DNA of 64,000 bases from Salibacter halophilus (GTDB taxonomy: Bacteria > Bacteroidota > Bacteroidia > Flavobacteriales_G > Salibacteraceae). The notes below the pieces were generated by a model. It was not told where the DNA came from. It did not search any database and saw only the letters and a program-made list of their open reading frames with translations. Shown in pieces: positions 37,048 through 59,915 of this stretch. Both the position numbers and the translations under genes were made by a program. Location of the stretch: NCBI RefSeq assembly GCF_008806325.1, contig NZ_WACR01000003.1, positions 186,001 to 250,000 of the forward strand, in the 5' to 3' direction. Position 1 is the first letter of the stretch; each line of letters opens with the position of its first letter.

Positions 37048-38073
37048 ATGGGTGAACAAGTAGTAATTTTGGGAATTGAATCGTCATGTGACGATACCTC
37101 TGCAGCAGTGATTGTTGACGGTGTGGAAATGAGCAACGTTGTCGCGGGGCAAAAAGTGCACGAAGCTTACGGTGGCGTTGTCCCGGAATTGGCTTCCCGT
37201 GCTCACCAAAAACACATCATTCCGGTTGTGGACCAGGCATTGAACCAAGCCGGAGTTGAACTGAGTCAGCTATCGGCTATCGGTTACACGCGCGGACCAG
37301 GATTGATGGGCTCTTTGCTCGTTGGCGGGTCTTTCACAAACGGTTTATCACTCGCCCTCAAAAAGCCTGTAATCGAGGTGAATCACATGCGTGCGCACAT
37401 TCTCGCTCATTTCATTCAGAACCTTGAGAAGTCGAGACAAACACCGGAATTCCCGTTTTTGTGCCTGACTGTTTCTGGCGGACACACGCAAATCGTTTTG
37501 GTGAAGGATTATTTTGAGATGGAAGTCTTGGGAGAAACAAAGGATGACGCTGCCGGAGAGGCTTTTGACAAAGTAGCCAAACTGATGGGACTTCCCTACC
37601 CCGGTGGTCCGGTTATAGACCAATTGGCCAAAGAAGGCGATCCTGATAAGTTTCGTTTTCCCGTTGCTGACATGCCCGATTTTGAATTCAGCTTTAGCGG
37701 GTTGAAAACGAATGTGCTCTACAAATTGCAAAAAGGTTCACAATCAGATCCTGACTTCGTAGCCAAAAACAAGGCACACATCGCGGCCGGAGTGCAAAAA
37801 GCAATCATCAAAGCACTTCTGCAAAAACTGGAAAGAGCCGCTAAAAAACACGGGATTAAAGATATTGCCCTGGCGGGTGGCGTATCAGCCAATTCTGAAC
37901 TGCGCGAATCACTAACAGAACTGGGCAAAAAAAATAACTGGAACACGTTTATTCCGCCCTTTGCCTATTGTACCGACAACGCTGCAATGATAGGCATCAC
38001 GGCCTATTACAGTTTTTTAGAAAAGAATTATGACGGTCAGTACCGACCTCCAAAGGCGAGGATGAAGATGTGA
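37048..38073 (+). CDS. tsaD: tRNA N6-adenosine threonylcarbamoyltransferase
   Basis: A 341-residue ASKHA-fold protein that, with TsaB and TsaE, transfers the threonylcarbamoyl group from TC-AMP to A37 of ANN-reading tRNAs. Landmarks: ILGIESSCDDTSAAV at the N-terminus, the metal ligands in VNHMRAHILAHF, the VSGGHTQIVLV motif, and the C-terminal LAGGVSANSELR and YCTDNAAMIG. The length fits the family and the start ATG is the first in frame. Divergent from the tamB-like gene; only about 60 bp separate the starts. Confidence 0.97.
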   Translation: MGEQVVILGIESSCDDTSAAVIVDGVEMSNVVAGQKVHEAYGGVVPELASRAHQKHIIPVVDQALNQAGVELSQLSAIGYTRGPGLMGSLLVGGSFTNGLSLALKKPVIEVNHMRAHILAHFIQNLEKSRQTPEFPFLCLTVSGGHTQIVLVKDYFEMEVLGETKDDAAGEAFDKVAKLMGLPYPGGPVIDQLAKEGDPDKFRFPVADMPDFEFSFSGLKTNVLYKLQKGSQSDPDFVAKNKAHIAAGVQKAIIKALLQKLERAAKKHGIKDIALAGGVSANSELRESLTELGKKNNWNTFIPPFAYCTDNAAMIGITAYYSFLEKNYDGQYRPPKARMKM

Positions 38074-38345
38074 GGCTGAGTCCCGCAGCAAGTGCGTGGA
38101 TCTAAGTTCATCTAGTCTTTGACTGTGGTCAAAGTACAAGATTTACTAAGAGTTGGGAGTTTGGTGGTTTGTGGGTTTGGAAGTTTGTGAGTAAGTGTAG
38201 GTTCTTTACGAAATACCCGGATACCGAGCGAAGTCTTGGTATGAGGGAGTTTTAACCTTAGGACACTTCATGAACCTTAATGACTTAATGTTTTGAAAAC
38301 CATAAACCATTAAGAAATTAAGCGTCATTAAGGTTTTCAAGAGTT
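38074..38345. repeat. Gene-free region with second-family repeat
   Basis: It begins with CCCGCAGCAAGTGCGTGGAT (about 38081), also present inside dispersed repeat copy A. It is followed by ATCTAAGTTCATCTAGTCTT and TGACTGTGGTCAAAG as at 22390-22440. Near 38290-38340, ACCATTAAGAAATTAAGCGT and nearby TTAAGG words form a loose inverted pair with CCTTAATGACTTAATG. No gene. Confidence 0.5.
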
Positions 38346-39182
38346 TTATTCTCCAAAAAACGCAGTCGCTAACTCCACTACTCGATTAGAATGTTCAGGC
38401 AAAGTTTCTTTGTCCCACGGGTGTTTTCCACCGTAAACGTGTGAAGCTCCTTCAATAATTTCGAGCTCAGCTTGCGGATTAGCATTTTGAATGTCCTTTG
38501 CTTCATCTACTCCAACTGTTTCATCGCTTCCTGCATGAATGATCAGTTGTGGAACATTCAGCTTAGATGCATTTTTCAGGATATTGAGCTTCTCGTTCTT
38601 TTTGCGGTATTCATCGATCAGATCGCGGTGAAGCGGCATGATTTGATTCGTGCGCGAATTGGGGATTTCCGTTAAACCTTTCTCTTCAAAGTCGCTGAAC
38701 TGTTTTTCGGAGAAGCGTTTTTCAAGGTCACTGATGCTCGACATTGTCGCCACTTTCTTTACGCGGTTATCCTGAGCAGCTGTAATGATGGCAATGGCTC
38801 CGCCTCTGCTGTGAGCCAACAGGTAGATTTTGTTTCTGTCGATATTTTCAGGAAGCTGATCACTGTCCTCGATGTAACTCAACACCGTTTGTAAGTCTGA
38901 AAGCTCCTTTTCAAACGTGTTGTGACCAAAAGCATCCAAACCGACAAAGTCTGTCGGATTTTCAACACTGGTACCGTTATGTGAAAAGTTGAATTTCAAA
39001 TAAGCAAAGCCTTTATCGGCAAAAGCATCAGCGAGCAGATTGAAATGTCCCCAGTCTTTAAAGCCTTTAAAGCCATGAAGGAAAATGATTACAGGTTGAT
39101 TTTCTTTATTCGGATCGAACCGCAAATCCACAGCAAACGGCCGACCTTCAGCTCCTGGAAGTGAAAATTCTTTTTTTGTCAT
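38346..39182 (-). CDS. Alpha/beta hydrolase (dienelactone-hydrolase/acyl-peptidase-like)
   Basis: A 278-residue cytoplasmic hydrolase with no signal peptide. The oxyanion-hole segment is IIFLHGFKGFKDWGHFN, the nucleophile elbow is LLAHSRGGAIAI with Ser in HSRGG, an Asp follows in IHAGSDETVGV, and the catalytic His is in IEGASHVYGG, giving a complete Ser-Asp-His triad. The substrate is unknown. Single-gene unit with repeats on both sides. Confidence 0.82.
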   Translation of the reverse strand: MTKKEFSLPGAEGRPFAVDLRFDPNKENQPVIIFLHGFKGFKDWGHFNLLADAFADKGFAYLKFNFSHNGTSVENPTDFVGLDAFGHNTFEKELSDLQTVLSYIEDSDQLPENIDRNKIYLLAHSRGGAIAIITAAQDNRVKKVATMSSISDLEKRFSEKQFSDFEEKGLTEIPNSRTNQIMPLHRDLIDEYRKKNEKLNILKNASKLNVPQLIIHAGSDETVGVDEAKDIQNANPQAELEIIEGASHVYGGKHPWDKETLPEHSNRVVELATAFFGE

Positions 39183-40015
39183 GATAGGTTAAAATTCAAC
39201 TTGATATAGTGAGTTAATAAATGCATTTTTTACTCAAATTCAAAAATAACTCTCTTTCTCTTAAATCTCAATTCTACACAGCTTCAAATATTATTATCAT
39301 CATATTGCTCAGTGAGTATAATGACATCATAGATTATTGTTCTTTGTTCTTTTGTCCTTTGTCTTGATACAAAGGACCTAAAATCAAGTCTCATCAGAGG
39401 CGATTTTTCTCCGTCTTCACTACGAAAACCGTAGTCGGATTGTGTGCTCCGCGCTTTGTTCCTCGCTGAACTAGCTAAGTTGAGGATAAAGATTAGTGTT
39501 TATTGTGATAGTCTTTCTTTTGTGGAAGATCATAAAGGGTTCCGCTTCGGAACGCGACTACGCACATCCGCTACATATCGCTGACTGATGAGACGCGATC
39601 CTACGAATTGAGTTTCTTGATTAATTGTTTGATGTAGAATCGCTTGTTTATTTATTCTCTATAAACCTGAGCCGAGAACGTAATCCAGACTACTCCCGAT
39701 GTGATTTTGCGAGCGTTTTCGGCCTCGGGAACTGACGCGTAGAATTTCAGCAGAGTGAGCGTACATTTTTGCTTTGCCTGAGCTCAGCCTTCGGATTTTT
39801 CGTCAAGAAAAATTCGCTAAAGGCGTTTGCGAGTTCAGTAAAAATAGCGATCGACTGCTAGAAATTCGAGCGAAGTTGCCGTCAGCCTTGATCTTTTCTG
39901 TGCTTTTGCATCAAGGTAAAAGCACGAGAATATACGAGTGAAACGAGGATAAGAAATGCTGCTTTCATTTCACTTTGTCTTGACACAAAAGGACTACAAA
40001 TAATAAATAGCCCCC
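39183..40015. repeat. 830-bp gene-free region with dispersed repeat copy B
   Basis: Copy B spans about 39341-39648, with GTCTCATCAG at 39388-39397 and CTGATGAGAC at 39585-39594, sharing the conserved inner blocks with copy A. Its variable core resembles copy C, not A or D. Right of it (39660-39940) is a longer GC-richer version of the module that follows copy A, ending in CCTTGAT/ATCAAGG inverted words. No credible gene. Confidence 0.75.
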
Positions 40016-40573
40016 CTACGCCATTTCAAGCTCAACGCTGCACTCTTCAGCTTTTTCGCCTTCAATCGTGTCGTAGTGCATGTCTTTCATCTCAAACTTT
40101 TCTTTTTCGTCATCATACACGAGGCACCTGTCGATTGGGTTCATGTACAGGTGAAGGGTCATGGAGCGACCGTTGTGTATGTTGTGCAGGCTATGATAAC
40201 CCATGTCATCGTGCATGTAAGAAATATCGCCCACTTTCATGTCAACTGTGCGATCATCGTATAGATTTCCAGAGTCGTCTTCCTTGATGCGAATTTCCTT
40301 GAGGTGACCGTCAACCATCAATACCCAGCACTCTTCGCCTCCGTGTCCGTGGATTGGTGTGTCCTGTCCTTCATCCCAGCAAAGGAGAAGCAATTCGTAA
40401 TCATCGGTGCGGTCGATGCAATTACGCGTGTATTTTTCAGCACACCAACTGGCGTATTTTTCGTAGTCTGATAGTGGTATATCAATACGTTCTGCTAATT
40501 CTACAAAATCATTTCCCTTACAACTCGGCAATATTTCAACTAACTCTTCTATCGATGTTATTTTGTTAGACAT
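40016..40573 (-). CDS. Cysteine dioxygenase, Arg-type
   Basis: A 185-residue cupin that oxidises cysteine with O2 to cysteine sulfinate using Fe(II). Iron ligands are His75 and His77 in PIHGHGGEEC, plus a third His near 127-130 (GYHSLHNI). The substrate-carboxylate Arg is Arg50 in KYTRNCID, matching mammalian YTRN. Cys82 (HxHx4C) and Tyr143 (LHLY) sit where mammalian CDO has the Cys-Tyr crosslink. The C-terminal 25 residues are acidic and not conserved. Divergently transcribed from a PLP decarboxylase gene 149 bp away, which would act on its product. Confidence 0.88.
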   Translation of the reverse strand: MSNKITSIEELVEILPSCKGNDFVELAERIDIPLSDYEKYASWCAEKYTRNCIDRTDDYELLLLCWDEGQDTPIHGHGGEECWVLMVDGHLKEIRIKEDDSGNLYDDRTVDMKVGDISYMHDDMGYHSLHNIHNGRSMTLHLYMNPIDRCLVYDDEKEKFEMKDMHYDTIEGEKAEECSVELEMA

Positions 40574-40721
40574 ACAGTGTTTTCCTTATTTTCGGTTCTG
40601 ACCAAAGGTACAAAAACCTAATTATTCGTTAAAACGGGCACTTTGCCCCTCGGGTTATCTCATTTCCTCACAATACTTATCTTCGAGCTTCAAAATTGAA
40701 TTCAAACTACGTTATTTTAAT

Positions 40722-42110
40722 ATGCTGAAAGAAGATTTAGAGCTCTTTAATGAGATCACGAACAAACTGTTAGAGAAAGAGAAAGAAGAACCTGTAGCTG
40801 AACCCATCGATCCCTCAAAACTATTTGAAACGCTCGATTTAGAGCTCGAAGATCAACCTACTGATCAGGATAAATTCCAAAATGCGCTCAAGGAGATTGT
40901 CCTCAATACTCCGCGCACTGCAACCAATCAATTTTTCAATCAGCTTTTTGGCGGCCGCAAAGGCAAAGCAGTACTGGGCGATTTGTTGGCCGTAATGCTC
41001 AACAACTCCATGTACACGTACAAAGTAGCCGGACCTATGGTTGGCGTGGAAAAAGAGATCATGCACAAAGTGCGCGACCTCGTTGGTTACCCCAAAACTG
41101 CTGACGGCACCATTGCTCCGGGTGGCTCCATGACCAACTTCATGGGAATGCTCATGGCCCGCGATAAATTCAACGAATCCATCAAAAATGACGGGGTTTC
41201 GCAAAAAATGACACTTTACACCTCTCAGGAATCGCACTATTCCATTCCCAAGAATGCTGCTTTTATGGGTATCGGTCGGAACCAGGTGCGCTATGTCCCA
41301 ACAGACGATCGCGGCCGGATGGACACAGCTAAACTAAAGGATCTGATCGAAGCGGATAAAGCCGATGGTTGTCACCCGTTTATGGTGATTGCCACAGCGG
41401 GAACGACTGTACTGGGAGCTTTTGATCCGATTGATGAGATCAACGAAATTTGCGAGGAACACAACATGTGGTCGCACGTTGACGGTGCGTATTGCGGATC
41501 TGTCATTTTCAGTGAGAATTACCGCCACCTGGTGAAAGGCGCACAAAATGCTGACTCGTTCACGCTCAACGCCCACAAGATGTTGGCTGTGCCTCTCTCC
41601 TGCTCGATTATCGTGGTGAAGGACAAAAAGTATCTCTACGACAGTTTCTCAAACGATGCCGATTACCTCTACCAAACAGATGGTGACGATTACAACCTGG
41701 GGAAGATCTCACTGCAATGCGGTCGCAGGAATGACGCGCTCAAATTTTGGACGCTGTGGAAAGCCGTTGGCACGAGCGGATTGGGAGAATTGGTAGATCA
41801 CCAGTTTGAGCTTGCGCAAGTTGCGCGCGATTACGTTCGCGATAACAGTGATTACAAGCTCTATAGTTTTGATGAGTCCATCAGTGTTTGCTTCAATTAC
41901 AAGGATATTCCGGCCGATGTACTCTGCAGCAAGCTGTACAAAAATGCCGAGCTGATGGTGGGTTACGGACAATACGAAGACGAACAGTTTGTCCGCCTGG
42001 TGACCATCAACTCCAGCATCTCGAAACAGGATGTTTTGGACTTCTTTGATAGTTTAGAAGCATTTGCAAACGAACATCTAAAATCGGAGGACGAAGTAAA
42101 AGCAGACTAA
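40722..42110 (+). CDS. PLP-dependent decarboxylase, GAD/CSAD group (probable cysteine sulfinate decarboxylase)
   Basis: A 462-residue group II amino-acid decarboxylase. The PLP lysine is Lys286 in LNAHKMLAVPLSCS; the PLP-ring His is in SQESHYS (His172) and the pyridine-N Asp in WSHVDGAY (Asp254). ATAGTTVLGAFDPIDEI and LQCGRRNDALKFWTLWKA are the strings typical of the animal GAD/CSAD clade. Substrate is not fixed by these motifs: cysteine sulfinate, aspartate and glutamate are all possible. The adjacent cysteine dioxygenase favours cysteine sulfinate, giving hypotaurine. The symporter gene follows 23 bp downstream, so the two are probably an operon. Confidence 0.85.
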   Translation: MLKEDLELFNEITNKLLEKEKEEPVAEPIDPSKLFETLDLELEDQPTDQDKFQNALKEIVLNTPRTATNQFFNQLFGGRKGKAVLGDLLAVMLNNSMYTYKVAGPMVGVEKEIMHKVRDLVGYPKTADGTIAPGGSMTNFMGMLMARDKFNESIKNDGVSQKMTLYTSQESHYSIPKNAAFMGIGRNQVRYVPTDDRGRMDTAKLKDLIEADKADGCHPFMVIATAGTTVLGAFDPIDEINEICEEHNMWSHVDGAYCGSVIFSENYRHLVKGAQNADSFTLNAHKMLAVPLSCSIIVVKDKKYLYDSFSNDADYLYQTDGDDYNLGKISLQCGRRNDALKFWTLWKAVGTSGLGELVDHQFELAQVARDYVRDNSDYKLYSFDESISVCFNYKDIPADVLCSKLYKNAELMVGYGQYEDEQFVRLVTINSSISKQDVLDFFDSLEAFANEHLKSEDEVKAD

Positions 42111-42133
42111 TTTTTAAACCCTAAACTCTTTTT

Positions 42134-43660
42134 ATGATTACGAAGCTCGTTGTACTGGGAATTTACGTTGGCATCCTATTCTTAATCGGTTTTGTGGCCT
42201 CAAAACGCATCAAAGGTCTGGACGACTTTTACGTGGGCGGCAAAAAAATCGGTTACTGGGCAGTCGCATTCTCGGCACGTGCAACGGGCGAATCGGGTTG
42301 GTTGCTCCTGGGTGTTACCGGGATGGGCGCCATAGCCGGATTCAGCGCTTACTGGGTCGTCATTGGTGAATTGCTGGGTGTGGCCATTTCGTGGTTTTTC
42401 ATGGCCAAGCCTTTCAAGCGGCTGACGGATAAATACAACTCCATCACCATTCCCGATTATTTCGAGAGTCACTTCAAGACCAAAACCCACATGCTGCGGG
42501 TGATCAGCTCCTCGGCACTGGCGATTTTCGTGATCATTTACGTGAGTGCCCAAATCGATATTACCGGAAAAGCCTTTGAGGATTTTTTGGGCTTTGACTA
42601 TTTCACCGGAGCCATCATCGGGTTCCTCATCGTTCTCACTTACATTTTTGTAGGCGGTTTTGTAGCCGTTGTTTGGTCAGATCTCTTCCAGGGCATCATG
42701 ATGTTCCTCGGTCTCATGGCCCTGCCGATTGTCGCGTACTTCACGATCGATCACTCCGAAAACATCATCGGTGGACTCAACAACATAGATCCGGCTCTGA
42801 CCAGTATGTGGGGCACATCAGATGATATGTGGATGAACATTTCCACGATGATCGGTTTTGCCATGATCGGACTGGGATTTTTGGGTTCTCCTCAGGTTTA
42901 CGTGCGGTTTATCTCGGTCAGGAATATCAAGGAGATCAACCAGGGACGCTGGGTTGCCGTGGTTTTTACGCTCCTCACTGATGCTGCGGCTGTGACGATT
43001 GGTATTTTGGGACGCTACCTCTTTACGGAGGCCGGTCAGGATCCCGAGGCGATTCTGGGAAATTCCGGTGAAGATGTGCTCACGATGATGGTGAGCGATG
43101 CGTTTCCGCTCGTGATTACGGCCATTTACGTGGCGATTATCCTCTCTGCGATTATGTCAACGATTGACTCGCTGCTGGTTGTGGCATCGAGCGCGATTAC
43201 CCGCGATTTTTACCAACAGATTTTCCGCCCCGATCTCGATCAAAAGGATTTGGGTACGATGTCGAGACTAGTAACGCTCGGAATGGCTTTACTGGCACTG
43301 GGAGTCGCAATTTCCGTAGCGCTGATATCCCCTACCCGAACCGTCTTTTGGTTCAGCATTTTTGGTTGGTCGGGCATTGCCGCGACTTTTTGTCCCGTTA
43401 TGATTCTGTCGCTGTTTTGGAAAGCTTACACCGAGCGCGGAGCCATAGCCTCCATGATTACGGGTTTTGCATCAGTTCCGTTTTTCAAGTTTTACGTTCA
43501 GAACCTGGACGGCATCGGGAAGTATTTTGAAGCGATTGACGTGATGGCGCCATCCTTTGTAACGGCTTTCATAGCCGGCTTCATCGTCACCAAGCTCTTC
43601 CCCAGCAAACCGATTGAAACGGAGATCATCCCGGATCATCCTAAGGAGGGTGTTGGGTAG
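42134..43660 (+). CDS. Sodium:solute symporter (SSS family, PutP-like)
   Basis: A 508-residue inner-membrane transporter of the LeuT fold with about 13 hydrophobic helices. Near the N-terminus it has DDFYVGGKKIGYWAVAFSA and then GESGWLLLG, as in PutP, and the sodium-site region of helix 8 is AIILSAIMSTIDSLLVVASS. The PutP-type motifs suggest uptake of a small zwitterion. The position behind the decarboxylase suggests taurine, hypotaurine or another sulfur amino acid, but specificity cannot be read from sequence. The GGTCAGADCC word occurs inside at 42793. Confidence 0.85.
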   Translation: MITKLVVLGIYVGILFLIGFVASKRIKGLDDFYVGGKKIGYWAVAFSARATGESGWLLLGVTGMGAIAGFSAYWVVIGELLGVAISWFFMAKPFKRLTDKYNSITIPDYFESHFKTKTHMLRVISSSALAIFVIIYVSAQIDITGKAFEDFLGFDYFTGAIIGFLIVLTYIFVGGFVAVVWSDLFQGIMMFLGLMALPIVAYFTIDHSENIIGGLNNIDPALTSMWGTSDDMWMNISTMIGFAMIGLGFLGSPQVYVRFISVRNIKEINQGRWVAVVFTLLTDAAAVTIGILGRYLFTEAGQDPEAILGNSGEDVLTMMVSDAFPLVITAIYVAIILSAIMSTIDSLLVVASSAITRDFYQQIFRPDLDQKDLGTMSRLVTLGMALLALGVAISVALISPTRTVFWFSIFGWSGIAATFCPVMILSLFWKAYTERGAIASMITGFASVPFFKFYVQNLDGIGKYFEAIDVMAPSFVTAFIAGFIVTKLFPSKPIETEIIPDHPKEGVG

Positions 43661-43848
43661 GTTTTTTGTGAATTACTTTAGAGTTTAAGACGTGGGGTTG
43701 AACTTGGTTTAATATGAAATAAAAATTTATAAAAAAAAACTACTACCAAAGTATCTAACGATTTTTCAAACGTGTTACACGTTTATGCTTTATTTCAATT
43801 AATTTAGAACTCTTTTGAAATACTTGCGAATTTTCAGAAGTAGGCTAA

Positions 43849-43892
43849 AAAAAATAATCACTTATAGCTGTCGCTTAGCTGGATTATTTTTT
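43849..43892. terminator. Terminator-like hairpin after the cyclase-like gene
   Basis: An 11-bp AAAAAATAATC/GATTATTTTTT stem with an inner AGC/GCT pairing overlaps the stop region of the minus-strand gene at 43891. It could serve both that gene and the symporter transcript from the other side. The remaining 43661-43848 shows no gene. Confidence 0.6.
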
Positions 43893-44631
43893 ATAATTCA
43901 TTTTCTATTTTTTCAAACATTATGAGAGTATTGTCAACATATTTTCTAGCCGTTCCTGATGATGATTGTTTGAATAAATTGATTTTCTCTTTTATATCTT
44001 TTACTTCTGGAATATCTTTACCCTCAGGTCTCACTATTTTAAACCAATTTATATTTGTGTGAGTTATACTTCCACATTTTAAAGTGGTTTTATCCTCGAA
44101 TAACATCTTTTCAAGTATCTTTAACTCCTTTTCGTCTGCAATCTTTGATAAATAGCTATCTATACTATTATGTGCTACAATACCCATGTAGTTAACATCT
44201 TCTTCCATTAAATATGCATCAATAATAGGTTGTCCAAAATAAATTTGTTCAGATTTATTTAAACTAACCTCACCATGTGCAATTGCACCCTTAAGTGGTA
44301 TCTGATTGTTAAATGCTGTTGTGAAAATCCATCGAGTTGACAAAAGAAAATATCTTAAATTATCGAAACTGTCATTTTTAGAAAAAATGACAATTGAGTC
44401 AGAAAAGCTAACAACGTATACTTCTGCATCCTTGTACTTATCAGAAATAGTATCATGCTCGGGCGCTTTTTCAACAAGTTTTTTTCCCTTTGAAATATGG
44501 TTCAAAGTTTCATAAATATTCTCATGTGATTTTCTCATAACCATATCTTTAAATCCCAAGATATCCAAAAACGCTACGAATCTTTTATCACTTGTTTTCC
44601 AATTAGTCTTTTCATTAGTCTTTTTTGCCAT
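43891..44631 (-). CDS. Stand-alone class III nucleotide cyclase-like domain protein
   Basis: A 246-residue soluble protein; start at ATG 44631, though a TTG at 44637 is also possible. It shows class III cyclase landmarks in order: a first metal Asp in FVAFLDILGFKDMV, a second Asp in YVVSFSDSIVIFS, then LKGAIAHGEV and IYFGQPIIDAYLME, which match the usual GIHTGEV and GxxVNxAARL strings in position. The transition-state Asn and Arg of true adenylate cyclases are not evident, so activity is uncertain. There is no sensor domain, no membrane helix and no effector gene next to it. AT-rich and in an accessory region. It could be a cyclic-nucleotide synthase, a degenerate binding domain, or a defence-linked enzyme; none is shown. 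Confidence 0.6.
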   Translation of the reverse strand: MAKKTNEKTNWKTSDKRFVAFLDILGFKDMVMRKSHENIYETLNHISKGKKLVEKAPEHDTISDKYKDAEVYVVSFSDSIVIFSKNDSFDNLRYFLLSTRWIFTTAFNNQIPLKGAIAHGEVSLNKSEQIYFGQPIIDAYLMEEDVNYMGIVAHNSIDSYLSKIADEKELKILEKMLFEDKTTLKCGSITHTNINWFKIVRPEGKDIPEVKDIKEKINLFKQSSSGTARKYVDNTLIMFEKIENEL

Positions 44632-44777
44632 CTTCAATCTTTCTAATTATGCACAACGTTTCGCAGCTAAGAAACTTGGAACTTTCGAAGTGATTAACCT
44701 CCCTTTCTTTATAAATTTAGCCACGAAGAACGAACCTGGCTGTTTACCACTACCTGCCCCATGTTTTCTTAGGTGCT

Positions 44778-45285
44778 GTTGGCACACGTTTTTTATTTTC
44801 AGTTTACTTCAAAAAACTCTTTGGGTGTATTCATTTGACTTCCGAGATAAATCTTTTTCTTCTTTATTGCTCCTAAAAGGGTCAACTCGAAATCAACTTG
44901 TCGACTGTCAAAAGTCGCAGGTGTCCAAAAGTTGAAATTTTTTATCTCATCAATAAACTGCTGGTCCATTGTTTCGTTACCAGTTGACTTAAATACCCAA
45001 GCATCTGTAATCTCACCTTCACAAGTCAGGACGAACTTGAATACTATTTTTCTATTGTCCGTTTTGATTTTCCCAATTTTGTCTCTGAAGTAGTCTTGTA
45101 TAGTCTTACTGTTTGTATACTTAGGTGCGACTCCTTTTTCTTTAAAAAACGGAGAGTTTTTGAAAATACTATCTGGTCTACAGGCGTCATAGTCGCCTTG
45201 TGTAAATATTTCTTGTCCTGTAACAGACAATGATAATAGCATTGCTAAAAGTGTAAGGATTCTCATATTCTTAATGTGTGCCAAC
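44778..45285. repeat. 10-bp perfect inverted repeat bracketing one gene
   Basis: GTTGGCACAC at 44778-44787 and its exact reverse complement GTGTGCCAAC at 45276-45285 lie 11 bp outside the stop and 9 bp outside the start of the gene at 44799-45266. Nothing else lies between them, so the unit looks like a single-gene cassette. No recombinase is in the window. Confidence 0.5.
44799..45266 (-). CDS. Exported TonB C-terminal-like domain protein
   Basis: A 155-residue protein with a signal peptide (start set at ATG 45266: MRILTLLAMLLSLSVTGQ). The mature part resembles the TonB C-terminal fold used in Bacteroidota energy-transducer-like proteins: a strand IVFKFVLTCEGEITDAWVFKS, a helix NETMDQQFIDEIKNF, then WTPATFDSRQVDFELTL. 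It lacks the membrane anchor and Pro-rich spacer of a true TonB, so it is a periplasmic relative of unknown function. The whole gene sits inside a 10-bp inverted repeat. Confidence 0.65.
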   Translation of the reverse strand: MRILTLLAMLLSLSVTGQEIFTQGDYDACRPDSIFKNSPFFKEKGVAPKYTNSKTIQDYFRDKIGKIKTDNRKIVFKFVLTCEGEITDAWVFKSTGNETMDQQFIDEIKNFNFWTPATFDSRQVDFELTLLGAIKKKKIYLGSQMNTPKEFFEVN

Positions 45286-45679
45286 TACCTAGTAAGTTTA
45301 CAAAAAGTAATATTACTCCTCATAAATGGTTTTAAGTTGACTTTTTGTTGTTGTAATTTCTTCCTTCATAATTACTAAATTATCACGTAACTACCAACAT
45401 CTCCCTTTAATATGTTTTATTAACTGATGAATATAAGCTCTTTTGGAGCAGGGATTAGGGAATTGCAATGTAAAGACTGGCCTCCCTCCTGGCAATTGTG
45501 AGCTGGATGTAGAGAGTTTAAAGTTTAAAAAGTTTAGTGTTTAAGGTTTAGAAATGAAAGGTGTTTACGGGGAATGTGTTGAGAGTGTGGGTTGGCTTTT
45601 GGTTGGGTTAAACAAAGTGCCAATCCTGCTCTACCGCGTGATTTTAACGTGTGTTTATTAATTGGAGTGTTATTTCATA

Positions 45680-45926
45680 GCCCTTTGTTCCCGCTGTTTT
45701 AAGCGGGATTTCGAGTAAACTCTCAACTTGACACAAAGGACGTAAAAGTCAAGTCTCATCAGAGGCGATTTTTCTCCACTGAAGTTCCGAAAACCGCAGT
45801 CGGATTGTGTGCTCCGCGCTTTGTTTCTTGCTCAACTAGCTATGTTGTTATGGTAATTAGTAACTATTTGGTATTAGCTGTCTGATTACAAAAATCCGGA
45901 TTGGGTTCCGCTTCGAAACGCGACTA
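45680..45926. repeat. Dispersed repeat copy C, right end missing
   Basis: The left half is complete (TTTGTTCCCGCTGTTTTAAG from about 45684, GTCTCATCAG at 45753-45762, then the GCAGTCGGATTGTGTGCTCC block). The variable core resembles copy B. It stops at CGCGACTA (45919-45926), directly before the stop codon of the next gene, and the CTGATGAGAC end is absent. To its left, 45285-45680 holds no gene, only AT-rich sequence with a run of GTTTAAA-like units at about 45518-45556. Confidence 0.75.
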
Positions 45927-45927
45927 T

Positions 45928-46290
45928 TTATATCTTTCGCCTTACTACAAAACTTTTCCCGTCCTGAGGATTAACAAGTTTTACAAGCAGATAAATATCT
46001 CCTTTACGTGGTTTTAATATGTCTCTACTTACTGCGTTGCAGTTGCTGTTTTTTTCTTTTTCAACTATTTGAGTGTCGTATGTAAATCTAAAAAAGGCTG
46101 TCCTTTCCTCCTTGATGGTGTAAATGATATCATCATCGCCTAATCTTTGGACATTATTATCAAATTTTATATTTCCCAGGTTTATCCTCTTTTCCTTTAT
46201 TGTACCTTCATCAGACATGGCAAATTCATTTTTAGTGCAAGTCATCAATTGAAGATAAATATCCTCTACTGAAAGCTTAAGTTCTGACAA
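45928..46290 (-). CDS. Downstream half of a frameshifted exported protein
   Basis: The frame called from a TTG at 46290 gives 120 residues, but coding sequence clearly continues upstream in the same frame to about 46371 (NWKYPEIEVTENNYG, then SVRFRISNLS) with no ATG, until the A9 run of the gene at 46338-46820. One extra A, or a -1 slip on that run, would join the two into a single protein of about 300 residues. The segment is beta-rich (RLGDDDIIYTI, AFFRFTYDTQ) with no domain I recognise. Its stop directly abuts repeat copy C, so the true C-terminus may also have been lost. This is either a pseudogene, a sequencing indel, or a slippage gene. Confidence 0.55.
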   Translation of the reverse strand: MSELKLSVEDIYLQLMTCTKNEFAMSDEGTIKEKRINLGNIKFDNNVQRLGDDDIIYTIKEERTAFFRFTYDTQIVEKEKNSNCNAVSRDILKPRKGDIYLLVKLVNPQDGKSFVVRRKI

Positions 46291-46337
46291 ATTAGATATT
46301 CGAAACCTAACACTTCCGTAGTTATTTTCAGTAACTT

Positions 46338-46820
46338 CTATTTCTGGGTACTTCCAGTTCTTTTTTTTTGCTCAAACATGTAAGCGGTTCTTATTTTCCC
46401 CATTTCCAAAATGGCTTCATGGTACTTTGATTTAACTTCTTCGGAAATCTTTTTATTATTAACCATGCTTTCATAAAAGCAAAGGGTCTGTCTGTAAGTC
46501 AAATCTTGCTCCCAAAAATCCTGAGATACTTTAGACTTTTGCTTGACATTTTTATTTATCGTTTTAGCTAATTCAGAAGATAGATCAACATCAGCTTCTA
46601 GTTCATCCATTCCTTGAATTGCTTCTGCATCAGCTTTAGCCGCTGCTTGCAGTTCAGCAACTAGTTTTAAAGCTGTTTCACTATCATACCCCTTCTCTTC
46701 AACTTGCCAGTCTAATCGTGGTACATTTTTACAATTGTCAGAAACAGCAGAGTCATTACATTTTTCTGCTGTTAGCAGAATGAGCACAAATACTCCCAGC
46801 AATACCATTTTAGTTTTCAT
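46338..46820 (-). CDS. Upstream half of a frameshifted exported protein
   Basis: A 160-residue frame starting MKTKMVLLGVFVLILLTAEKC, a lipoprotein-type signal with the lipobox-like AEKC. The mature part is helical (AELQAAAKADAEAIQGMDELEAD). It ends EQKKRTGSTQK and a stop just after a run of nine A residues (plus strand 46361-46369). In the other frame the sequence runs on into the beta-rich segment at 45928-46371. No family was recognised. As it stands it would produce a helical lipoprotein fragment without its C-terminal domain. Confidence 0.6.
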   Translation of the reverse strand: MKTKMVLLGVFVLILLTAEKCNDSAVSDNCKNVPRLDWQVEEKGYDSETALKLVAELQAAAKADAEAIQGMDELEADVDLSSELAKTINKNVKQKSKVSQDFWEQDLTYRQTLCFYESMVNNKKISEEVKSKYHEAILEMGKIRTAYMFEQKKRTGSTQK

Positions 46821-47322
46821 AGTTTAAATTTTAAGTGATATAAATATTTGAGTTTTAAATCTTAATAGTGTAAACACCTATAGGTCAAAGCTATAACCAT
46901 GTTTAGTTTGATGAAAAAGTTTAAAAACATCGTTTCAATTAGAGAGCAGATTAAGGTCACTATTCCAGTAAAATTTTACACTCTGCAAAAATAATGATCC
47001 TCGCTCCTCTTCTACCTGACTACTCTCAGTACATAAAGGAACTGAAACCTGTTTTAAGTTTAATATAGCACTGCAGAACTATTCTCTCACAATCATTTAA
47101 ATCATGAGTAAAGATAAAGTATTTAGGTGAATTAATTTAACAAAAGACTCATTTGATGTGTTTTACACGTATTTTGATCATCAAAAACTACGAATGACTT
47201 CCATGCCTTTTAAGCATTTTTGGCTATTCTAATATTCAACAGTCAAACTATAAAGGATTAAATTCACTGAACTCGAAAGCTCGGTTCGTGTGGTAGTAGA
47301 GGGATATTATGTTACTTTATAG
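46821..47322. other. AT-rich gene-free stretch
   Basis: About 500 bp upstream of the frameshifted lipoprotein gene. All six frames are closed by stops, and I see no tRNA, riboswitch or long inverted repeat. It probably contains the promoter of the minus-strand gene at 46820. Confidence 0.5.
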
Positions 47323-47729
47323 CCCTTTGTTCACGCTGTTTTAAGTGGGATTTCGAGTAAACTCTCAACTTGACACAAAAAGACAATCCTTTTCATTGAT
47401 TGTAATTGATAATCTTTTTTCTTGATAAAAAAGATAAAAAAGTCAAGTCTCATCAGAGGCGATTTTTCTCCACTCAAGTTCCGAAAACCACAGTCGGATT
47501 GTGTGCTCCGCGCTTTGTTTCTTTCGTAGTTAGAAACCCCGCAGCAAGTGAATAAAAATAGTGCACGATCCCGTTCCTTTCGTCACGAGGATATAAGAGT
47601 TTCTAAAATCTGACAAATGAATCAGATTAAGAACCTCTAATACTTCGCACATCCGCTGCATATCGCTAACTGATGAGACGTGAACTACGAATTTAGATTT
47701 AGATTTATTGTTCAGTTAAGGATCGCTTG
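47323..47729. repeat. Dispersed repeat copy D
   Basis: Complete copy with GTCTCATCAG at 47447-47456 and CTGATGAGAC at 47670-47679. The core is like copy A but longer, and it carries the CCCGTTCCTTTCGTCACGAG word of the second repeat family (about 47570). The tail TTGTTCAGTTAAGGATCGCT (about 47708) is shared with copy A. The following 47730-47940 contains inverted versions of second-family words (ATCTACTGACGCTATCGGTC) and no gene. Confidence 0.75.
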
Positions 47730-47940
47730 ATTTTTTCTACGCCTCCCCTCCTCCTTCTACTCAACCTTGACTCTTAGCAAATCTTAGTCCTTGACGCAAA
47801 ACAAGACTTAGATGAACTTAGATCTACTGACGCTATCGGTCAGCACTAAAAGCTCGGCCCGCAAGGGTCGGGACTCATCCGTGATCTGACCGGAAAACCT
47901 AAAACCAGAAAATTACATGATTAATAAGACACATCGGTAA

Positions 47941-49020
47941 TCATCTACTCGTCAGTAATTTAAATAAGGGCTCGTTTATGTAATAATTTCCCGTACCAAT
48001 TTTACTCTTTTTTAAAAGTCCATCATCAGCTAATTTATTTAAATAGTTTGCTGCTGTAATCCTTGAAACATTCAAGTCATTGACTACAAACTCAATTTTT
48101 GTGTAAGGGTGTTTGAACAGGTTATTTAATAAATCCTGACTGTAAAATTTATAATTATCCCTTAGTCTGTGCTTAAACTCCTGCATTAACTTTTTAATCT
48201 CATTAATTAAGTCGATAGTTTCTCTCGAGGTTTTTTCAATCCCTAAAATCATAAAAAGCAACCATTCCTCCCAATTATCATCGTCTCTTATTTGTTGTAA
48301 AAGCCTGTAATAGTCTGCTTTATGTTTGATAATATAATTACTCAAATATAGAATAGGTAATGTCTGGAGTTCTTCCAGAATTAAATAAAGGATATTTATA
48401 ATTCTACCCGTTCTTCCATTTCCATCATAAAAAGGGTGTATGCTTTCAAATTGATAATGGATTATTGCCAGTTTAATTAAGGGATCATAATCTGATACTG
48501 CCGGGTTGTTAATAAAACTCTCGAGGTTTGACATTAAGCGATTAATTTCGTTTATGTCTTGAGGTGGAGTATAAATTGTTTCTCCTGTGGCTGCATTTTT
48601 TAAAGCTGTACCCGGGAGTTTTCTGAATCCAGCATCATTTTTCTCTAACTCACTTTGAATATCAATAATGATAGAGTTCGTTATTGCCCCTTTGGTTTTT
48701 ACCAACTCGAATCCTTTTTTAAGTGCTGCAATATAGTTCTGAACTTCTTTTGCCTGCAATGAATGAAAAGCATCTACATTTAATTCTGACTTGTATAAAT
48801 CGTCATGTGTAGTAATAATATTCTCTATTGCAGAACTGTCTTTAGCTTCTTGAAGTCCTAACGTATTGATTAAAATTACCTGATTAGGGATAGTTGATGC
48901 TATGCCCTTTAGCTCGGCTAATGCAGCGTGAGCTTTTGGTAAGCTCTTCAGTACTGCTTTAGTTTCAAGGTCTGTGTTAAATGGGAGTTCTTTTAGAGAA
49001 AAATCGTTGTTCACAGACAT
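47941..49020 (-). CDS. Fic-family protein with N-terminal inhibitory motif and C-terminal winged helix
   Basis: A 359-residue protein that should transfer AMP (or another nucleotide moiety) to a target hydroxyl. The Fic motif HPFYDGNGRTGR is at 195-206 and is intact. The inhibitory helix motif SSAIEN is at 62-67, upstream of the Fic core, so it is a class II (self-inhibited) Fic protein, and the flap lies near 140-152 (ATGETIYTPP). Residues about 300-358 form a winged helix (FVVNDLNVSRITAANYLNKLADDGLL). It stands alone in an accessory region; its promoter region has five TTTACA/TGTAAA words. The target is unknown. Confidence 0.9.
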   Translation of the reverse strand: MSVNNDFSLKELPFNTDLETKAVLKSLPKAHAALAELKGIASTIPNQVILINTLGLQEAKDSSAIENIITTHDDLYKSELNVDAFHSLQAKEVQNYIAALKKGFELVKTKGAITNSIIIDIQSELEKNDAGFRKLPGTALKNAATGETIYTPPQDINEINRLMSNLESFINNPAVSDYDPLIKLAIIHYQFESIHPFYDGNGRTGRIINILYLILEELQTLPILYLSNYIIKHKADYYRLLQQIRDDDNWEEWLLFMILGIEKTSRETIDLINEIKKLMQEFKHRLRDNYKFYSQDLLNNLFKHPYTKIEFVVNDLNVSRITAANYLNKLADDGLLKKSKIGTGNYYINEPLFKLLTSR

Positions 49021-59084: not shown

Positions 59085-59915
59085 ATGAGTAAAGCGCTTA
59101 AGCCTGTCAGTAAAAATAAAAAGAAGATTACTACGCACGTTCTTCAGGAGATGAAGAGCAAGGGCGAAAAAATATCAATGCTAACCTCCTATGATTACAG
59201 CATGGCAAAGATTGTGGACAAAACGGGGATGGATGTAATTCTCGTTGGTGACTCGGCCTCAAACGTAATGGCCGGACACGAAACCACGCTTCCCATTACG
59301 CTGGATCAAATGATTTACCATGCTACTTCAGTCGTAAGAGCTGTTGAAAACGCTCTCGTTGTTGTGGACCTGCCATTTGGAACATACCAGGGTAACTCGA
59401 AAACAGCATTGGATTCCAGTATTCGCATTATGAAAGAAAGCGGTGCTCATGCCGTAAAGCTAGAAGGCGGAAAGGAAATCAAGGAATCGATCGATCGAAT
59501 TTTATCTGCCGGAATTCCGGTAATGGGTCACCTCGGACTCACTCCACAGTCGATTTACAAGTTTGGAACGTACACGGTCAGAGCCAAACAAGATGAAGAG
59601 GCAAACCGCTTGATCGAGGATGCTAAAATGCTCGAAGAAACTGGTTGCTTTGGAATTGTTTTGGAGAAAATACCAGCTAAATTAGCAAAACAGGTAGCAG
59701 AATCTGTAGAGATCCCGGTTATTGGTATTGGAGCCGGAAACGGTGTTGATGGGCAAGTATTAGTTGCTCACGATATGCTGGGATTAAATGTCGACTTCTC
59801 CCCTCGTTTCCTTCGCAGATACAACAACTTGTCTCAACAGATTGAAGATTCTGTAAAGCAGTACATCAACGATGTAAAAACCAGGGATTTCCCTAACGAG
59901 AACGAATCGTATTGA
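59085..59915 (+). CDS. panB: 3-methyl-2-oxobutanoate hydroxymethyltransferase
   Basis: A 276-residue TIM-barrel enzyme of pantothenate biosynthesis, converting 2-oxoisovalerate and methylene-THF to ketopantoate. Landmarks: [28 protein letters not shown], then [10 protein letters not shown] and [13 protein letters not shown], and the C-terminal [18 protein letters not shown]. Length is slightly longer than E. coli PanB (264) owing to a basic N-terminal tail. The downstream pseudouridine synthase ATG shares the last base of the panB stop. Confidence 0.96.

Follow-up and report, generated by a model that had tools for sequence, protein, structure and literature searches.

Annotation of a 64,000-nucleotide stretch of the Salibacter halophilus genome (contig NZ_WACR01000003.1, positions 186,001 to 250,000; this whole stretch is referred to as the window) showed three neighbouring genes at 40016-43660, coding for a cysteine dioxygenase (CDO), a pyridoxal phosphate (PLP)-dependent decarboxylase and a sodium:solute symporter, and this locus is probably a cysteine-to-hypotaurine module of the bacterial taurine type. 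The CDO would use O2 to convert L-cysteine into cysteine sulfinate, the decarboxylase would remove CO2 from cysteine sulfinate to yield hypotaurine, and hypotaurine may be oxidised to taurine with no enzyme dedicated to this step. The symporter would carry a solute of the pathway together with Na+, namely taurine, hypotaurine, cysteine, or a sulfinate or sulfonate amino acid. The route from CDO through cysteine sulfinate to hypotaurine had been proposed in a preliminary description of this DNA and was well supported by the selectivity motif of the decarboxylase, the catalytic residues, the linkage of the genes and their co-occurrence; the actual substrates and products and the solute of the symporter are our inference, as is a storage of the product as osmolyte or antioxidant in place of a disposal of cysteine.

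All three genes of that description were recovered at its positions as open reading frames with Pfam scores above the cut-offs. Its placement of the symporter in the operon of the decarboxylase also agreed with the layout, as the two genes are on one strand with a gap of 23 bp, while the CDO gene is divergent and 148 bp away. The decarboxylase and symporter genes likely form a two-gene operon, with the CDO gene beside the operon and outside it. The genome comprised 3.12 Mb in 32 contigs, and the features of the locus were as follows.

40016..40573, minus strand: cysteine dioxygenase of the mammalian Arg-type with Cys93 by its residues, 185 aa (Pfam CDO_I 73.9 bits, cut-off 23)
40328..40330, minus strand: codon of CDO Cys82, equivalent to mammalian Cys93 (HMMER alignment ungapped from HxH to Cys)
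40145-40147, minus strand: codon of CDO Tyr143, equivalent to mammalian Tyr157, the crosslink partner of Cys93
40574..40721, no strand: divergent promoter region between the CDO and decarboxylase genes, 148 bp, with TAnnTTTG on the CDO strand
40722..42110, plus strand: PLP-dependent decarboxylase of the GAD/CSAD/GADL1 group, predicted cysteine-sulfinate decarboxylase, 462 aa (Pyridoxal_deC 285 bits, cut-off 27)
40947..41015, plus strand: decarboxylase selectivity motif F76-(19 residues)-S96-M97-Y98, the same pattern as CSAD F-S-Y
41577-41579, plus strand: codon of the decarboxylase PLP lysine K286
42134..43660, plus strand: sodium:solute symporter, PutP-like and not PutP, 508 aa (SSF 237.3 bits, cut-off 22.8)

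Active-site residues of the dioxygenase and the decarboxylase

The CDO carried R50, H75, H77 and C82 at the positions of mammalian R60, H86, H88 and C93, and H127, T139, H141 and Y143 at those of mammalian H140, S153, H155 and Y157. A phmmer search of the PDB gave 72 bits for human CDO and 26.6 bits for Bacillus subtilis CDO, and the AlphaFold2 model (pLDDT 89.5) had TM scores of 0.81-0.85 to mammalian CDO and 0.52-0.70 to bacterial thiol dioxygenases. The catalytic residues, the Cys93 and Tyr157 positions and the fold were common to mammalian cysteine dioxygenase type 1 (PDB 2ic1, 2b5h, 6bgf), although identity in the fold search was 22-24% and Ser153 was replaced by Thr, Ser being present in 38 of 69 relatives. 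According to one report, eukaryotic CDOs crosslink Tyr157 with Cys93 while bacterial forms use an unmodified Tyr (PMC8050391), and another describes an unmodified Tyr as retained in bacterial MDO (PMC10966181). Judged by its residues, the CDO of the window is mammalian-type, with a Cys93/Tyr157 pair otherwise described as absent from bacterial CDOs. It matches the mammalian crosslink by the residue pair only, and a bacterial CDO with this pair would be a natural comparison for the role of the crosslink.

The eight positions held R, H, H, C, H, S/T, H and Y in all 69 distinct CDOs of the cluster type (at least 115 bits, with the contig-edge fragments of L042 and L105 excluded), a count in which, as in that of the symporter residues below, one gene may figure more than once through partial copies from overlapping loci. 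None of nine lower-scoring CDO_I paralogues had Cys at the Cys93 position, and eight of the nine were without the second iron His. Tyr or Phe replaced this His in those eight. A second CDO_I paralogue, at about 315.0 kb on contig 3 of the genome and so beyond the window (L030 8997-9533), had Tyr for the second iron His and Gly at the Cys93 position, and its neighbours were a DUF4199 gene and two genes of the histidine kinase/response regulator kind. In view of the replaced His, this protein could have another enzymatic function or act as a sensor.

The decarboxylase scored 299 bits against GADL1, 292.7 and 290.3 bits against CSAD and 252.3 bits against GAD67 in the PDB, and its F76, S96 and Y98 had the same spacing as in CSAD. 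The selectivity residues, read from the PDB rows and the alignment, were F-S-Y in CSAD, Y-S-Y in GADL1 and S-N-F in GAD67. The three selectivity positions and the F-19x-S-x-Y motif are reportedly those of Agnello 2013. Another report traces the specificity of the GAD/CSAD group to three active-site positions (PMC8153620). A whole-protein search of the family sample gave F-S-Y in eight of nine full-length orthologues (window included) and Y-S-Y in the ninth, and F-S-Y was found in nearly all of 80 named loci, a count biased by scan patterns that contained the motif residues.

Membership in the GAD/CSAD/GADL1 group would also suit a glutamate decarboxylase that makes gamma-aminobutyrate (GABA) for acid resistance or signalling. 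This function is very improbable here: the enzyme was without the S-N-F residues of GAD67 and scored 28.5 bits on the glutamate decarboxylase model TIGR01788, where the cut-off of 380.4 was not reached, its partner gene codes for a CDO, and the transporter was a member of the SSF family and not an antiporter.

Animal CSAD (PDB 2jis, 6zek) shared the PLP lysine and F-S-Y with the decarboxylase at 32-34% identity in the fold search, but belonged to a different clade. A FastTree tree of 29 sequences, including four animal sequences of which two were CSAD, united animal GAD67, GADL1 and CSAD in one group (support 0.99) and left the bacterial clade outside it, so that the bacterial enzymes were farther from CSAD than GAD67 was. 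The window enzyme is therefore no animal CSAD. The preliminary description had spoken of the animal taurine route, and this held for the chemistry and the type of CDO, whereas the decarboxylase branched outside the animal enzymes as a whole and not within CSAD. F-S-Y may be the older state, as it was shared by the bacterial clade, CSAD and a distant Bacteroidota enzyme (L143). The AlphaFold2 model of the decarboxylase was rejected as a guide to specificity, with a pLDDT of 75.5 overall and below 50 over residues 64-105, which include the motif; its fold search ranked GADL1, GAD67 and CSAD alike (rmsd about 13-14), and the model was thus non-discriminating.

Linkage and co-occurrence of the three genes

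The samples covered the order (42 genomes), the phylum (296 genomes), the family (35 genomes) and 80 named decarboxylase loci, and a total of 89 loci represented about 88 genomes, L021 and L078 being apparently from the same genome. The nearest named relatives of the decarboxylase were in Flavobacteriales and other Bacteroidota. Within the order, where this CDO type was defined by an E-value below 1e-45, the decarboxylase was present in 10 genomes (nine full-length genes and one contig-edge fragment in G023) and the CDO type in 9. The decarboxylase was thus found in 9/9 CDO-bearing genomes and in 1/33 of the others (Fisher p 2e-8; 9e-8 with the own genome removed). The phylum sample had the decarboxylase in 7 genomes, CDO in 4 and both in 4, that is, the decarboxylase in 4/4 CDO-bearing genomes and 3/292 others (p 1e-7; 5e-6 with the own genome removed); all of these p-values are optimistic because related genomes are not independent. 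One genome (G010, 89% complete) had the decarboxylase and only a weak CDO_I match. CDO and decarboxylase were on separate contigs in four genomes (G024, G031, G004 and G023), so their co-occurrence is not mere linkage.

CDO adjoined the decarboxylase in 50 of the 80 named loci, with 49 divergent pairs and 1 tandem pair, and a tandem CDO was also present in L023, L024 and L026. The genes flanking the triad differed from locus to locus; the decarboxylase of Flavobacteriaceae usually stood between an nqr-like block and further genes, with CDO inserted in some. One of these further genes is presumably pruA, the nqr-like and pruA names being read from sequence. The grouping of the genes is beyond chance, because it recurs in many genomes and the genes co-occur. 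A contig labelled Verrucomicrobia (L080) had the gene order of the Flavobacteriales/Bacteroidota loci L032, L046, L052, L075 and L076, and is probably misbinned or misnamed.

The symporter was present in 10 of the 42 genomes of the order, nine of them decarboxylase-bearing (p 2e-7), and in 28 of the 80 named loci, 27 of them with CDO. A CDO-symporter pair without an adjacent decarboxylase was found in G024, G342, G349 and the genomes of L040 and L054, and a decarboxylase-symporter pair without an adjacent CDO in G010 and G031. Since each of the three pairings occurs alone somewhere, the symporter is tied to the pathway. In the L040 and L054 genomes the CDO next to the symporter was on L148 and L156, and the decarboxylase lay elsewhere in an nqr-like context.

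The symporter was 32% identical to Escherichia coli PutP and scored 329.7 bits on TIGR02121, below the cut-off of 515.5. The equivalents of PutP S340/T341 and D187 were retained, whereas the first core helix had R49-A-T-G52-E53-S54 in place of PutP G52-A-S-D55-M56-S57, so that G52, D55 and M56 of PutP were changed to R49, G52 and E53, and these three residues were invariant in 45/45 covering sequences. According to one report (PMC7918813), the unwound stretch of this helix takes part in substrate binding throughout the family. On these residues, our guess is a solute that differs from proline and may be a zwitterionic sulfur amino acid. As a candidate carrier, the linked symporter can be put to the test.

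Possible alternative substrates of the decarboxylase

Several results weigh against the assignment to hypotaurine synthesis. On the side of the decarboxylase, the tree placed it equally far from animal GAD and CSAD, its best PDB match GADL1 prefers aspartate (PMC5947694), and among the named loci L004/L078 and L085 had Y-S-Y and L074 had F-S-A. On the side of the partner genes, the 30 named genomes in which no CDO adjoined the decarboxylase comprised 20 with no CDO_I match anywhere and 10 with one (the cysteamine-dioxygenase family was not searched), and the G267, G159 and G150 genomes likewise gave no CDO_I match. Among the 50 named CDO-bearing loci, of which some are on contigs that end early, 23 gave no symporter, and G038 had the symporter without CDO or decarboxylase. 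A dedicated hypotaurine oxidase was not found in the 42 genomes.

Most of the CDO-less carriers retained F-S-Y, and the 20 included the isolates Winogradskyella flava, Ulvibacter antarcticus and Cochleicola gelatinilyticus. Their enzyme must depend on a different supply or a different substrate, and may use cysteate, imported cysteine sulfinate or aspartate. Because such carriers exist, CDO predicts the decarboxylase and not the reverse, and the decarboxylase gene alone is therefore no sign of taurine synthesis from cysteine. The preliminary description had regarded a lack of co-occurrence in relatives as fatal to the taurine proposal; the genes did co-occur, but in one direction.

The same carriers bear on two other substrates. 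An enzyme that acts mainly on cysteate or cysteine sulfinate, imported or otherwise independent of CDO, would also give taurine or hypotaurine, with CDO as an optional addition in some lineages. The many Flavobacteriaceae with the decarboxylase and no CDO, isolates included, fit this arrangement, as do the activity of human CSAD on cysteate (PMC8153620) and the invariant Arg and Glu of the symporter at the Gly and Met positions of PutP. It is nevertheless improbable for the window locus, given that CDO and decarboxylase occurred together in 9/10 decarboxylase-bearing genomes of the window's own order.

The second substrate is aspartate, with a GADL1- or PanP-like enzyme whose product would be beta-alanine, destined for pantothenate or some other purpose, and which would stand beside CDO for a different reason. 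The aspartate-preferring GADL1 (PDB 6enz) had the top PDB score, 20 of the 30 genomes just described had no CDO_I, and no PanD match was found in the same-genus relatives G023 and G024 or in G010. Brumimicrobium glaciale (L085), which had Y-S-Y and neither a CDO_I nor a PanD match, is the best candidate for such a role by its gene content. PanD was absent in 3/10 decarboxylase-bearing and 3/25 other family genomes, and a negative association of panD with the decarboxylase was rejected as not significant (p 0.32). The pantothenate gene concerned in the window was the following, about 15 kb from the cluster.

59085..59915, plus strand: panB (ketopantoate hydroxymethyltransferase), outside the cluster and relevant to the pantothenate proposal only (Pantoate_transf 379.7 bits)

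The preliminary description had noted this panB and had stated that a panD gene elsewhere would weaken the pantothenate proposal. A panC-panD pair was found on contig 6, and PanD was present in 44 of the 49 genomes with the decarboxylase that were searched for it and in 29 of the 35 family genomes, and the proposal is weakened because of the pair in this genome and the 44/49 count. In addition, the window motif was F-S-Y, with F where GADL1 has Y at the first selectivity position, the PanP model TIGR03799 gave 147.9 bits where its cut-off is 606.1, and aspartate leaves the linkage and co-occurrence with CDO unexplained. Aspartate decarboxylation is thus an unlikely function of this gene.

Product fate, known systems and surroundings

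The storage of the putative product as osmolyte or antioxidant is plausible. None of the 42 order genomes had Xsc above the cut-off, the model also matching general proteins in 14/14 control genomes, and taurine dissimilation via Xsc is therefore not expected. A fragment like the C-terminal part of Xsc, a thiamine diphosphate enzyme, was seen in G003 (contig 31, 12789-13130) just downstream of the decarboxylase. FMO-like proteins occurred in 7/42 genomes and in 3/10 decarboxylase-bearing ones with no pattern, and the match in the own genome was weak (54.8 bits).

Animals and algae are usually regarded as the makers of taurine, an organosulfur compound widespread in the sea. A bacterial CDO-CSAD taurine pathway was reportedly described by Agnello et al. 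in 2013 in Synechococcus sp. PCC 7335. Three features of such a module were found here: the three iron His and Arg60 of CDO, the F-19x-S-x-Y motif, and linked and co-occurring genes. Both loci have linked CDO and F-S-Y decarboxylase genes; the window locus differs in being from Bacteroidota, and its linked PutP-like symporter and mammalian-type CDO may be further differences from the 2013 operons. PMC8153620 confirms the bacterial pathway and the expression of Synechococcus CSAD. Bacterial taurine synthesis through CDO and CSAD is thus already known, and the mammalian-type CDO and the linked symporter are the less expected parts here. No report of a CDO-decarboxylase-symporter cluster in Bacteroidota was found in the literature covered, mostly without subscription papers. 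If the hypotaurine reading is true, the recurrent Bacteroidota module would be an added bacterial source of taurine. A wider proposal is doubtful, namely that this module has a genuine Cys-Tyr cofactor in CDO and a new Na+-coupled carrier of taurine, hypotaurine or amino-sulfonates, and that F-S-Y is ancestral and animal GAD (S-N-F, GABA) derived.

In the 148-bp divergent region, GGGCACTTTGCCC was considered as a conserved operator and rejected, as it was present in 0 of the other 89 upstream regions. TAnnTTTG, which we take to be the Bacteroidota -7 box, occurred in 20/50 and 14/50 divergent regions on the two strands, against means of 4.9 and 5.7 in shuffles that preserved base content only; this enrichment is suggestive at most, and many regions had no box. 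An Rfam search of 37500-45000 gave no match. The sigma-70-type promoter scan gave 18 matches (10.7 expected) and the terminator scan 8 (5.5 expected), and neither was used. A possible terminator lay downstream of the symporter.

43851..43890, no strand: weak candidate terminator 3' of the symporter, a 9-bp inverted repeat with A/T tails (such matches are no evidence of function)

Directly past the symporter, GC content dropped from about 0.48-0.50 to 0.33 (43660-48000). An open reading frame without a Pfam match lay at 43891-44637, and a SoFic-like Fic protein at 47941-49020.

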